Source of the DNA: Nannobrachium achirus | Lineage: Eukaryota; Chordata; Actinopteri; Myctophiformes; Myctophidae | DNA length: 64,000 bases | Direction of reading: 5' to 3' | Assembly (NCBI GenBank): GCA_963921795.1 | Contig: OY997641.1 | Location: 27,378,035-27,442,034, forward strand | Part shown: in pieces, positions 2,615 to 63,230 of the stretch | Numbering within the stretch: position 1 is the stretch's first letter | Layout of the letters: the number at the start of each line of letters is the position of its first letter | The notes under the pieces: model-generated | Seen by the model: the letters and a program-made list of their open reading frames with translations, nothing else | Database searches by the model: none | Told to the model about the DNA's origin: nothing | Translations under genes and position numbers: made by a program

Positions 2615-2825
2615 CAGTGGTTCTCAACCTCTTCAGGCCGCGACCCCGAAACAAATCGTATTTGAACTGGGGACCAACCCTGACAAGCACTTGGAATTGT
2701 TGGATTGGAGGAGCATTAGCCTACATTTTGTTTAACTAAAAAACAATCTACAAGCTCACAATGCCTCGAGGGAGAGGGAGACTGAGGAAAAAAAGAAGAT
2801 TTCAAGGTTTCTGTCCGACAACAAG
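2615..2825 (+). mobile_element. Truncated hAT-like element with half of the shared palindrome
   Basis: It starts CAGTGGTTCTCAACCTCTTC, a typical left end of the small hAT family also seen at 9465 and 51141. Its inner sequence (GGGGACCAACCCTGACAAGC) matches those copies. At 2744-2764 lies one arm of the shared palindrome (ATCTACAAGCTCACAATGC) without its partner. At about 2802-2822 is a fragment resembling the right end of the CGTCGTTGTCGGG family. The right end is lost. Confidence 0.6.
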
Positions 2826-3162
2826 GAGCAATAGAGGACTAGAAAAAGTGCTCCGCCAGGTCAGGTAGGTTATTGTGGGCCAGCAATGTTCGTAATTCGC
2901 CAATCAGGATGGAATATGGAAAACGGAAAGCAAGCGTATTTTAACTGCTCAAGGGTGAACAATACCAGAGATAAGATATGGGGGAGGGAGGAAAATAGGG
3001 CTTTCCTTCAGGGGCAGTTGAAACACGCGGATAATTAACAATGACCTTGAAAATACATTACTGGATGTATAGAGAATTCCAAACGCCAGATAAATGAGCT
3101 GGTAGACCCCAGCTTATAATAGAGGTCATCTCTTTACATAAGACCATGATGTAAGGACAGAC

Positions 3163-3355
3163 AGTGTGTGTGTGTGTGTGTGTGTGTGTGTGTGTGTGTG
3201 TGTGTGTGTGTGTGTGTGTGTGTGTGTGCGTGCGTGCGTGCGTGCGTGCGTGCGTGCGTGCGTGCGTGCGTGCGTGCGTGCGTGCGTGCGTGCGTGCGTG
3301 CGTGCGTGCGTGCGTGCGCGCGTGCGTGCGTGCGTGCGTGCGTGCGTGCGTGCGT
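3163..3355 (+). repeat. (GT)n followed by (TGCG)n
   Basis: About 32 GT units pass directly into about 31 TGCG units with one CGCG irregularity near 3317. Alternating purine-pyrimidine sequence of this length is Z-DNA-prone. Confidence 0.97.
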
Positions 3356-3671
3356 ATTTTTGGTAGACATTGCAGCAGAAATTTCACACCAATTCCTTCC
3401 CGCTGCAGCCGAAGATGTGTTGGCCGCTTTGCGTTCATCTTCGGTGCAAACCGGAATGAAAAGGAACAATTTCTTTTAGACGTTTAAATAGTTAGCTAAT
3501 GCAAATGGGCTAATATGTTCTCACATTCACACACGCAAATCATGTCATAGAATGGCTGTCCCGTATGGAAATAGATGTAAAGGAGCCCGGGGGCTCGACA
3601 GGGAGTCACATTTGCATAAAGAAACATGCGTGTGTCAGCAGGTTATGTCGGCTCTACATGAAGGTCAACAG

Positions 3672-3694
3672 CCCCCCCCCCCCCCCCCCCCCCC
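3672..3694 (+). repeat. Poly-C run (23 C)
   Basis: Uninterrupted C homopolymer. Confidence 0.95.
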
Positions 3695-3832
3695 GAACAG
3701 AAGCCAGAGTTTGGAGGACAGATCCACGCCTGACCGACCGCCTGTGGTCATGTTCTACTGTACCCATCTGAGCTTGTTTCGGTGTGCTGTTTTCGGTGTG
3801 TGATACAAACAAAGTGTAACAGAGGCTTAAAA

Positions 3833-3990
3833 AGGTGGCCGTAGCCGAGCAGAGAGGCCGTCTGAGAATTGGAGGGAGGCAGATTCGACCCTCGGGTCAC
3901 AGAGTCAAAGTATCCCTAAGTAAGATCCTTAACCCCTGACAGCTATAGCTGAGCCACCTGAGCAGCCATCGGCTGTGTAAATGCAGAATA
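3833..3990 (+). mobile_element. tRNA-derived SINE, decayed
   Basis: The head resembles a tRNA D-arm (GTGGCCGTAGCCGAGCAGAG, an A-box-like stretch). A B-box-like AGATTCGACCC follows about 50 bases later. Then comes the fish SINE body motif GTATCCCTAAGTAAGATCCTTAACCCC, a variant of the 'tgtcc-ttgagcaagac-ctgaacccc' block seen in the SINEs at 7305 and 42158. No clear target duplication is visible. Confidence 0.55.
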
Positions 3991-4443
3991 GTCATTTCCC
4001 CAGGCCCTGCAGGGACCAGCAATTAATCCTTTCCCTAAAGAGTTTGACAGAGCAGAGGGCAATCCTGGAGGCTCGGACAGTGTGCATGCAGGGCTGCGGG
4101 GCAATTCACCGTCCAATCCAATAACTCACTTAATCTTTCTCATGTAGGTTAATCAAATAATTGAGAAGCAGGTTTCTCTTTTCTTAATTATCAACAGATG
4201 CCAAAAATATATAATTTAATAGTTGAGCTGCGCAGTTCACCCTTGAACCTTGACCTTTGACTTAAAATGACTGCAAATGACGGAAATAATTTTGAGATAA
4301 AATGTCAGCTGGAATAGTACCTGGAATTTTGAATCTTCCTTTTATTTCGACTTTTGTCGATTTACAAAGCAACCGTACAAAACACAGGATAGGCTTCAAG
4401 CAAAAATGTGAAAGACGCACATGAGAGAAAGTGAAAACGGGAA

Positions 4444-4544
4444 CTCTCTCTCTCTCTCTCTGTGTGTGTGTGTGTGTGTGTGTGTGTGTGTGTGTGTGTG
4501 TGTGTGTGTGTGTGTGTGTGTGTGTGTGTGTGTGTGTGTGTGTG
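4444..4544 (+). repeat. (TC)n followed by (TG)n
   Basis: Nine TC units then about 41 TG units. The opposite-sense (CA)n array begins 114 bases downstream. Confidence 0.97.
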
Positions 4545-4657
4545 AGTGCATGTGGATGGATGGTTGGCATTCCAGAGTCCTGAGTCAGATGGAGCAGCTC
4601 CAGCTGTAGCTGACGCTGGCACTACATTCCCAGGGATGTTCGAACAGGTTTACCAAG

Positions 4658-60786: not shown

Positions 60787-60788
60787 TG

Positions 60789-60800
60789 TGGTGTCAGAAG
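60789..60800 (+). promoter_or_regulatory. Primer-binding site (tRNA-Leu type)
   Basis: TGGTGTCAGAAG starts two bases after the 5' LTR. It is complementary to the 3' end of vertebrate leucine tRNAs (...CTTCTGACACCA). Confidence 0.75.
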
Positions 60801-60828
60801 AAAAGAAAAACGGTCCAGAATATCTAGA

Positions 60829-61307
60829 ATGCCTCCCAAGAACCAGCAAAAGCAGCAGCAAACAACAGCCATGAAGGAAGAGGGTGCCACAGGGGGAGCC
60901 ATCGAGGAAGGTTTCCAGCCCAAGGTGGACACAACCACTTCCAGAGAGACGGGTATGGCCAGGAGGAAGATGGAGAAGAAGTGGAACCAGCAGCGGCGCA
61001 ATGTTCTAAACCCCCAGATCACCCGGTTCCAGTGGACCTCGAGGCAACCAGGGCGCAGTCGAGGGTGCCTGCAACACAGCTTGTCGGTGTCAGCGACACA
61101 TCAGAGGCGGCTGCAGGAGTTGCAGCAACACCGGTGCCAGAGGTGGAGCCGAATCGGGTGGGTGAAAAGACTTGAGCGCAAAGGCCAAAGAATTTGGTTC
61201 CTTTGCAAGGCGGCCTTTAACTTCTGTGCAGGAAAGGTTCAGATGTGTACAGAAGAAGACTTCCTTTCCTGGACGCCACAGGGGGCGTCATCAGAAGGGG
61301 GGGGAAA
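60829..61307 (+). pseudogene. gag remnant of the LTR element
   Basis: An ATG 28 bases after the primer site opens a basic, Gln-rich frame (MPPKNQQKQQQ). The plausible protein-like reading shifts frame near 60950 (VPATQLVGVSDTSEAAAGVA in the next frame) and again later, so it is not intact. I see no zinc knuckle, protease or reverse transcriptase. The first frame runs into the 3' LTR and stops at 61458. Confidence 0.5.
61294..61307 (+). promoter_or_regulatory. Polypurine tract
   Basis: AGAAGGGGGGGGAAA immediately precedes the 3' LTR, the expected primer for plus-strand synthesis. Confidence 0.8.
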
Positions 61308-62161
61308 TGTCACGGGGCAACCCGTGCCCTATATACAGATACAATGTTTGAGGACAATGTACACACACCCAACTAAACAGCGTTTCCCATTTGACCAACT
61401 TTGCCGGCCGGCTTTGGAAATGACTGTGAAAGGGTTGGTTCATGGACTATGTTCTTGAGCTTGTATTTCAATGCATTTTAATGTTCTAATGTTTATTGAA
61501 TCATTGGTGGTGGTAATCAGGGGTGTGGTCACCTCCCTAGTTGTCTCTCCTCCACAGCCGGTGGCAATTCCTTGGTTAATAGGAATGGGCCAAGTGCTGT
61601 GGAGGAGAGGGGGTTCCCTTTGTTTTTCAGTAATGTGTTGGTTTGAAATGTCATTCATTTGAAGTTAACCTAACCCCAAAGTTTAAGTGTAACGCATCAT
61701 GTAGTATGCTTAGGTTACTCTTACTAGCTGCGGGTTATTGAATGTTTATTTGGAAGTATATGGAAGTAAAGCTAAGGCTAATTGGTGTCCTGTGGTAGGG
61801 CCCACTCCCTATTTAAAGGGAGACTACAGGGCAGGCAAGTTAGTTCTGATGTGGACATACACAAGAGAGCATTCCCTGAAGGGAGAGCTATGGGGCCATG
61901 CTGTGATCATGGTTTTACCCAAAGAGAGTTCTTGGCCTGTTGGGTTATGTTAGTGTTGTTCGCGTAAGTGTTATTTTTCAGCGCTGTTCTATTATTTTCT
62001 ATTTTTGGTCAGTCTTATTTTTGGCTATTTGCTGTCTTGGTGAAATACACTGCTATTGGAAGGTGATTTGGTGAAATATGGAAGGTGTTTTGGTGAAATA
62101 AAAACCCTTAATGACAATCCTGAGACTGTTTTTGAAGCCTGGCTGCTCGGGCAACCTTACA
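61308..62161 (+). repeat. 3' LTR
   Basis: Same length and, by eye, the same sequence as the 5' LTR; its AATAAA is at 62097-62102. Confidence 0.95.
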
Positions 62162-62166
62162 ATATG

Positions 62167-62871
62167 CGTTAAAAGAATTAGTGAAGTATTCAAAAATGCA
62201 AATTACAAAGAAGCTAAATTGTCCGTTTCATATCAACGCATTGCTGCATTGATATTTTCACCCAAAATGTCAAAAAGGAAAATGTGTGTGAAAAATGGCA
62301 GATATACAAGCCAAGAAGACTTAATAGTTCATCCCCAAAATTATCTTTTTTCTATTGATTACTCCCCCATGGAGACGTTCCGATCTTGCAGCTCTGCTAC
62401 ATTTGATGCTTTTGTGTGACGCTGTAGTATGAAGTATGACATTTATATACAAAAGTGAGCAGTGGATGTCAGCAGTTCATTTCGAAGTTAAGTTTCCTAA
62501 CATTTATGTATCATCATACACATATTTTATCTATTTGGGGCTCGCGTGGTCCCCGGCCCACAGGTTGGGTGGGAATGACGTGATGTGGTGATGTGTTTGA
62601 GAGTGTGAATAGTGCAGTACTTTAACACCGAGTCCCGATGGGAGCTGGACGTCTATATATGGTGAACACACACAGCAGCATGGGGCATGACTTTTTACAC
62701 CAGGCTTTATCTGGGGCCTGGGGAGACGTAGGGACACACTGTGCCCCGTGGCATATCTGCAGGGAGCAGACGCATTGTACTGCATTCACACTCCACAAAC
62801 CCTGTTTGTCTGCTGTTAATGTTTCCAGACAGACATCCACCTCTCTACGATCGGCACACACACACACAGTG
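62167..62871. other. Flank with worn palindrome and MITE traces
   Basis: AAATGGCAGATATACAAGCC at 62294-62313 and TTTGTGTGACGCTGTAGTAT at 62410-62429 are very old traces of the CGTCGTTGTCGGG family. Nothing else is recognised. Confidence 0.35.
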
Positions 62872-63018
62872 TGAGTGTGTGTGTGTGTGTGTGTGTGTGT
62901 GTGTGTGTGTGTGTGTGTGTGTGTGTGTGTGTGTGTGTGTGTGTGTGTGTGTGTGTGTGTGTGTGTGTGTGTGTGTGTGTGTGTGTGCGTGTGCGTGTGC
63001 ATGTGTGTGTGTGTGTGC
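62872..63018 (+). repeat. (GT)n microsatellite
   Basis: About 55 GT units, then GTGTGC variants; CA repeats (62858-62868) just before it can pair with it. Confidence 0.97.
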
Positions 63019-63183
63019 CCATGCGTGCGTGCATGTGAGGCCCAGATATCACCCCAAGTATAGTCAAATGTGAGAAATAGACATTGAGATATATGAGTTC
63101 AGGATAGACATTTCGAGGTTATAGGTTTAGCTTTGGTGAGTTATGACTCATTTATATTTAGTTGAACGGTGAAGTCACACACT

Positions 63184-63230
63184 GAAAAACAGCAGATCTA
63201 CATATAGCTCAGCAATTTGCTGCTATTTCC
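63184..63230. repeat. Short copy of the shared palindrome
   Basis: TGAAAAACAGCAGATCTACA and AATTTGCTGCTATTTCC with only about 15 bases between. Confidence 0.5.

Follow-up and report, generated by a model that had tools for sequence, protein, structure and literature searches.

A short palindrome within miniature transposon families of unlike ends in Nannobrachium achirus, and a nested TTAA-ended unit that may have brought it there

Short interspersed nuclear elements (SINEs) of the CORE, V and Deu types possess a conserved central domain that is common to families with unlike ends. MADE1 (hsa-mir-548) is a palindromic miniature inverted-repeat transposable element (MITE) of about 80 bp with fixed ends and TA duplications, whose hairpin has the size of a precursor microRNA (pre-miRNA). 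The ends of piggyBac elements begin with CC, and hAT MITEs are characterized by ends of the form CAGNGG/TAGGGNTG and by 8-bp duplications. Among the TTAA MITEs of the piggyBac and Kolobok types, the Xenopus T2-MITE combines a TTAA target with short inverted ends beginning with AGGRR and with many subfamilies (PMC6004289); the word palindrome is absent from the main text of that paper. The closest described precedent is the MER6/V-domain composite MITE, in which a SINE domain lies within one mariner-type MITE and has been spread by the amplification of that MITE (PMC6887750). Here, a palindrome of about 75–81 bp, termed the core, is described that lies inside many MITEs of otherwise unrelated sequence in Nannobrachium achirus, and that forms the center of a nested, TTAA-ended unit in at least one of the host families. 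The analysis started from a window of 64,000 nucleotides (assembly GCA_963921795.1, contig OY997641.1, positions 27,378,035 to 27,442,034 of the forward strand); stretches fetched elsewhere in the same genome carry L-numbers (L016, L025, L050, etc.).

Compared with the SINE central domains, the hosts of the core are DNA transposons and the shared domain is a palindrome; several hosts have the inverted ends and target-site duplications (TSDs) of DNA transposons, whereas a SINE is characterized by an RNA-gene-like head and a LINE-like tail. The likeness to MADE1 consists of a palindrome of ~80 bp, the hairpin size and, in some families, TA at the edge of the core, whereas the outer bases of the core vary between families and the unit visible here is larger and TTAA-ended. 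The ends and 8-bp duplications of hAT MITEs are matched by several hosts in this genome, which differ in that the palindrome common to them travels inside as a passenger. With T2-MITE, the unit has TTAA, short inverted ends and numerous subfamilies in common, but its ends begin with CC instead (PMC6004289). MER6 resembles the present case in that a MITE contains, and by its amplification has spread, a conserved domain taken from another mobile element; there, however, the passenger derives from a SINE and occurs in a single mariner-type MITE, as opposed to the palindrome found here across several families of hAT-type and other MITEs (PMC6887750). A search of the literature on MITEs with a shared center yielded as near only the precedents named here, which is no proof of absence, and six core strings of 16–17 bases had no occurrence as letters in the literature text searched. 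The genome offers an extensive natural collection of DNA transposon families that differ in their ends and share a single palindromic center. With sequence alone, it becomes possible to ask by which route a passenger passes from one transposon family to another, be it nesting with co-mobilization or exchange at a palindrome prone to break, and what keeps this passenger more uniform than its carriers. Annotation calls for caution, as repeat libraries may wrongly merge or split core-bearing families.

The consensus of the core, drawn by eye, is (T)AGTGAAAATAGC[A/C]GATCTACAAGCTCACAACGCGTCGCA followed by its mirror; the outer edges read GTGAAAATAGC...GCTATTTTCAC, and the bare palindrome measures ~77–81 bp. 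Allowing at most one mismatch, GATCTACAAG has 49 matches in the window as opposed to 3.78 expected, and none of 100 shuffles reached that number. Arms were scored with an nhmmer model at a threshold of at least 12 bits, with the reversed sequence as control. A sequence-only reading of the window had listed 19 palindromes and eight single arms, and the core is present at every one of them (19/19 and 8/8): all 27 named coordinates are overlapped by at least one arm match above the threshold, the weakest being 47814 and 14439, where the best or sole arms are divergent. Its total of 22 palindromes and 11 single arms is compatible with the automatic count of 31 units (16 complete palindromes and 15 single arms), in which weak second arms miss the 12-bit threshold. 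A sample of 314 kb, composed of the window and 25 further 10-kb stretches placed at round coordinates, contains 190 arms compared with none in the reversed sequence; these group into 129 units, 61 of them palindromes. The 250 kb outside the window contribute 98 units (45 palindromes), that is about 390 and 180 per Mb, which extrapolates to ~650,000 units and ~300,000 palindromes in the 1.66-Gb assembly. Stretches L001–L008 come from the start of contig C1 and are biased; they were excluded from these density counts and included in the flank clustering and in the alignments of families D, F, B and E described below. The exact 19-base arm AAAATAGCNGATCTACAAG occurs genome-wide 112,915 times in forward and 112,914 times in reverse orientation (reversed-pattern control, 0 and 0), corresponding to 136/Mb, with 187/Mb in the window and 95/Mb in twenty other 10-kb stretches. 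The core density of the window is ordinary for this genome. In phage records and viral contigs, the core was absent at the settings used.

Clustering of the flanks yielded 28 clusters of at least two members and many singletons. By alignment, the ends of family A are TCGTCGTTGTCGGG or TCGTCACTGTCGGG, those of D CAGGGGTCTTCAACG, of F TAGGGATGGGACGAT and of B CAGTGGTTCTCAACC, and family E was also recovered as a core-bearing host; hAT-1 ends in CAGCGGTTCCC, G in TAGGGCTGTCACGATTA and C in CAGGGGCGTCAC. Short terminal inverted repeats are present in the hAT-type hosts (B, C, D, F, hAT-1 and G). The host ends named by the sequence-only reading were seen again: CAGCGGTTCCC at 6940–7256, CAGGGGCGTCAC at 21845–22449, CAGTGGTTCTCAACC, CGTCGTTGTCGGG at 19130–19385, CAGTGGTGG in the form CCACCACTG, and CAGGGGTCTTCAACG in the form CAGGGATCTTCAACG at 58814–59240, where the TSD TTATAGGG is found twice. 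A perfect 8-bp TSD surrounds eight of the 24 listed end pairs around cores, in families B, hAT-1, C, D and F; the remainder match at 7/8 (two), 6/8 (three) and 5/8 or less (eleven), whereby the best-fitting end pair was kept, which inflates the scores slightly, and some poor scorers are false pairings. By chance, a match of at least 7/8 arises in 0.2% of random pairs. A hAT-1 member in L021 matches at 8/8. The best matches of family G are just 6/8 and 5/8, and the 8-bp duplication holds for B, C, D, F and hAT-1. In family A, TA precedes the left end in 6/7 copies and follows the right end in 3/7. Because perfect 8-bp TSDs flank several core-bearing hosts, the core is directly observed to ride in complete elements that transposed as wholes. 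The further suggestion that it lands in MITE centers does not agree with family C, which carries two cores, one per half, in mirrored segments. The core-bearing and related features of the window are the following.

58814..59240, plus strand: complete hAT-type MITE of family D, beginning with CAGGGATCTTCAACG; TSD TTATAGGG/TTATAGGG; core at 59031–59111.
19698..20164, plus strand: hAT-type MITE of family D; core at 19942–20022; 8-bp flanks unmatched as scored (1/8).
21845..22449, plus strand: hAT-type MITE of family C with ends CAGGGGCGTCAC; flanks GGTCTACC/CATCTACC (6/8); cores at 21926–22001 and 22260–22328 in mirrored segments.
19130..19385, unstranded: family A MITE, ends TCGTCGTTGTCGGGTG...; core at 19206–19285 with TA at both edges.
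6429..6642, unstranded: family A MITE; core at 6494–6566.
37214..37395, unstranded: family A MITE without core, AAAAAAAGTTTAAA standing in its place.
6940..7256, plus strand: hAT-1 MITE CAGCGGTTCCC...GGAACCACTG, read from the sequence; flanks CCCTAGAC/CCTTAGAC (7/8); core at 7116–7196.
8757..8816, plus strand: single arm at 8785–8816, with a TTAATCCACTTTAGCC end 27 nt outside the arm.
25666..25746, plus strand: core palindrome, with TTAAACCCTATATAC 24 nt away in the right flank.
44144..44216, plus strand: core of a split family A element (40548–44310) with a 3.5-kb insertion at the core edge.
9598..9655, plus strand: core palindrome with a left flank of family B.
39603..39683, plus strand: core palindrome in a hAT-1 copy.
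26201..26281, plus strand: core palindrome in a hAT-1 copy.
58148..58226, plus strand: core palindrome in a C-type copy.
45803..45866, plus strand: core palindrome with unplaced flanks.
47811..47899, plus strand: core palindrome; in its right flank stands TCAACCACTTAAGCCTCATTGGCTATTC, read toward the core and differing by one change from a TTAA-type end.

The 3.5-kb insertion in the split A element (40629–44143) has nearly identical inverted ends of more than 360 bp. An exchange of arms between families at 44144 and 40616, which looked reciprocal, was rejected, both belonging to the one A element that this insertion splits.

In family D, the core is the center of a nested inner element that is bounded on each side by TTAACCACTTGAACC and has a 15-bp inverted repeat; this two-ended unit is observed directly. 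It spans 197 bp in L025 (3773–3969), where its ends are separated from the core unit by 88 and 40 nt. The unit in the window (19853–20056) measures 204 bp, and TTAACCACTTGA is read toward its core from both sides. In L050, TTAACCAC is read toward the core from both sides of a 144-bp unit. TTAA on both sides was found for four D inner units, including those of L025 and the window, and for L050; many other copies have one end only. In other flanks, TTAACCACTTNARCC, TTAACCCATTTAGRCC, TTAAACCCTCT or TTAACGCCCTACTTGAT lies at a distance of ~24–89 nt from the core. A coupling of such ends to the core is directly visible genome-wide: TTAACCACTT located 0–16 nt outside AAAATAGC (pattern TTAACCACTTN{0,16}AAAATAGC) has 689 matches and the reversed-pattern control one. 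With the demand for TTAA dropped, the pattern CCACTTN{0,16}AAAATAGC has 2,972 matches, unrelated repeats included (control, 63), giving a TTAA-preceded share of 23% (689/2,972) compared with <1% estimated from base composition. Within the 314-kb sample, TTAA stands before CCACTT at 11/18 places that point at a core within 150 nt and at 11/177 others, and 12/23 TTAA(N)CCACTT sites, counted on both strands, point toward a core within 150 nt. Directly upstream of TTAACCACTT, at least six different sequences were distinguished by eye at 20 loci picked for variety among the genome matches; because unlike sequences precede it, insertions of a unit starting at TTAA appear to have taken place in several sequence contexts.

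The explanation to which we assign the highest probability, about one half, is that a TTAA-target, piggyBac-like MITE with a palindromic center entered other MITEs, was co-mobilized with them and had its ends decay in some hosts. The palindrome would herein be the conserved center of short non-autonomous elements that insert at TTAA and form an old and diverse clan, namely piggyBac-like MITEs ending in, e.g., TTAACCACTTNARCC or TTAACCCATTTAGRCC. Members of this clan would have inserted into other MITEs, among them several hAT families; the composites would then have been mobilized by the transposase of the host element, amplifying the palindrome as a passenger, and in many hosts the nested unit would have lost one or both TTAA ends, leaving a core with variable flanks. 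Nesting and co-mobilization account directly for D, and via the TTAA ends for several other contexts; the other core-bearing hosts may have been founded in the same way as D, and the TTAA unit was presumably moved by a piggyBac-type transposase. The tiny palindromic mobile unit proposed in the sequence-only reading is retained insofar as the palindrome recurs in MITE families with unlike ends, within complete target-duplicated elements, and arrived on a smaller mobile unit in at least one family; the visible unit is larger than proposed, being TTAA-ended and 144–204 bp long.

Several observations weigh against the arrival of the core by nesting. Just 22 of 188 flanks have TTAAC[CG][AC] within 150 nt, at a total of 23 sites compared with ~7 expected; the flanks listed for B, G, K and hAT-1 lack such a TTAA end, and the TTAA ends vary between subfamilies. 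All four core-bearing TTAA pairs of the sample belong to D elements and probably go back to a single insertion, and a TTAA-ended unit of 131 bp with TTAACCCATTTAGGCC ends lies, without a core, inside a G-family element (L022:6001–6131). The empty site predicted for the D host, CAGATATTTAATATAAAAAA, is absent from the genome as an exact string, and the insertion step itself was not seen. A transposase gene with matching ends was not found in eight piggyBac 3′ stretches of 900 bp, in which the element end is mostly unreached. A nested unit should moreover keep its flanks like its core, yet D and F differ in flank and hardly in core. Nesting alone explains neither the uniformity of the core nor the B, G, K and hAT-1 hosts, where no TTAA end is seen.

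Enzymes of the piggyBac type exist in this genome, with 116 scored matches to the transposase domain among 952 candidates, many of them without internal stops. Several matches form groups of at least four that agree in score and in frame length, which, together with the many uninterrupted frames, suggests recent activity. One piggyBac copy, in L055, bears a single core arm just after the stop codon (L055:402–433), and its element end reads TTAACTGGCC. It was considered as the source of the core and is not taken as such because its end differs and the number of arms, one in eight stretches, is below the ~4 expected by chance (190 arms in 314 kb). The eight 900-base stretches contain two TTAA in total.

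The relatedness of the hosts outside the core was addressed with profiles of 11 flank groups, which were compared with 188 flanks and 4,000 background segments. No cross-clan homology exceeded the background maximum; the sole cross-clan match, of the hAT-1 profile on a B flank, scored 8.4 bits, under the background maximum of 28.3 for that profile. Within clans, flanks are shared by A and E, whose A-left and E-left profiles match A-right via the shared ends of the clan, and by D, F and cluster 12. In addition, the outer flank of C resembles the right flank of D, the two aligning by eye from TTAA to the core. The claim that the hosts are unlike outside the core hence stands between clans, where no homology is detectable at the sensitivity used, and fails within A/E and D/F. 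Flanks shared together with the core, as well as the C–D alignment, would be in keeping with a single core-bearing ancestor of all hosts, from which ends and flanks diverged as the center stayed. Such an ancestor, which the sequence-only reading had itself set against its proposal, is disfavored and appears unlikely to us because the target duplications differ in kind (8 bp for B, C, D, F and hAT-1, TTAA for the inner unit of D) and because the flank profiles find no homology across clans above the highest of the background segments.

At the edges of the core, the four bases outside AAAATAGC are family-specific and often mirrored: TAGT in A, in G and on one side of hAT-1, TTGT in B, TGCC/AGCC in D and F, AGCA or AATC in E and TGCT in K, with ATTG and TTTC in C as the exception. 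In family K (L016:4253–4300 and L029:4488–4549), the palindrome extends ~ten bases farther outward than in other families, reading TTGCGTGCTG...CAGCACGCAA. These edges bear on the idea that the bare palindrome is itself mobile, duplicating TA in the manner of MADE1, or is swapped between families by recombination or repair at a break-prone palindrome. TA|GTG[AG]AAA is found on both sides in most copies of A and of G, and in hAT-1 on the right of 4/5 copies and the left of 1/4; TA is the commonest dinucleotide before the GTGAAA-type edge (23/46, followed by TT with 15), and A and hAT-1 have in common the bases that precede the edge, AAAC on one side and AAG on the opposite one, all of which favors a movable bare core. 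Other families, however, have TT, CC, TC or GCT-type edges instead of TA, the mirrored outer bases (AATC, TGCC, TGCT and TTGT) are unlike a fixed terminus with a TSD, and no core with a TA duplication was shown in unique DNA.

Coreless copies of family A, in which both flanks are joined within 12 nt, number 52 genome-wide. The junction is exactly AAAAGTAGTTTAAA, equal to one TA copy, in 16, as would suit a TA-duplicating core; it is AAAAGTTTAAA in eight, and 28 show other remnants such as GTAGTTCACTAGTTT. One-TA products also result from deletion between TAG repeats, though, and the other 36 places lost other extents. Four of the 16 exact-junction copies were read and do not form one lineage: apart from two that are 7% apart and share outside sequence, their mutual distances are 0.24–0.27, compared with 0.14–0.30 to four filled copies; two of the 12 rows in this comparison are misaligned (window 6420–6700, with the core left in, and L021 1400–1660, with one end missing), and group means were not used. 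Because the copies read are mostly as far apart from one another as from filled ones, recurrent deletions at short repeats that removed the palindrome appear to fit better than an ancient empty lineage, with a few true empty sites possible. The coreless A copies look more like later deletions than like empty sites. Since nesting leaves the core uniformity and the TTAA-less hosts unexplained, exchange of the bare core, or its independent movement, is retained as the main rival, though a less probable one than nesting.

Over 20 family pairs, core identity amounts to 0.73–0.87 between families and 0.78–0.90 within them, whereas mean flank identity between clans is 0.39–0.57, random 40-mers reaching 0.40 (sd 0.16); for D and F, which belong to one clan, the values are 0.54–0.66 for the flank and 0.80–0.84 for the core, the latter as high as inside a single family. 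That cores differ between families little more than within them, next to flanks at or near random, likewise favors the bare core as the part that moves. The core might also act as a hub of exchange, in which the hairpin breaks and repair from several hundred thousand copies transfers the core, sometimes with a few flanking bases, between unrelated MITEs. We regard this as doubtful; if true, the core would stay uniform while its surroundings diverge, and unrelated DNA transposons would share a center as SINE families share a core domain.

Arms of the 61 palindromes agree at 0.825 within a unit and at 0.767 between units. At positions 3, 10, 23, 26 and 31 of the model, variation is mirrored in both arms (within-unit arm identity 0.76–0.93, compared with 0.35–0.79 between units), and at positions 14, 18 and 28 it is unmirrored; copies of one family are not independent, and these figures count copies, not events. 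Mirrored substitutions and a conservation exceeding that of the flanks would be expected if selection kept the palindrome, as a site for a shared factor or as a hairpin RNA of pre-miRNA size, each family having acquired or kept it. This is very unlikely in our estimation: the three unmirrored positions argue against it, family structure and arm correction in a DNA hairpin produce mirroring as well, and an Rfam search of the window placed no family at gathering score over the core. With nesting as the preferred origin, the extra conservation of the core may reflect constraint, or correction from arm to arm or from copy to copy.

The window contains further features. A Tob-like gene, whose 426-codon open frame encodes BTG and PAM2 domains, occupies 27430–28710 on the minus strand, and a 205-codon open frame at 11603–12220 on the plus strand matches DUF2415 (E 1.4e-6). 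At 8274–8328 on the minus strand lies a UnaL2 3′ element of a long interspersed nuclear element (Rfam RF00436).

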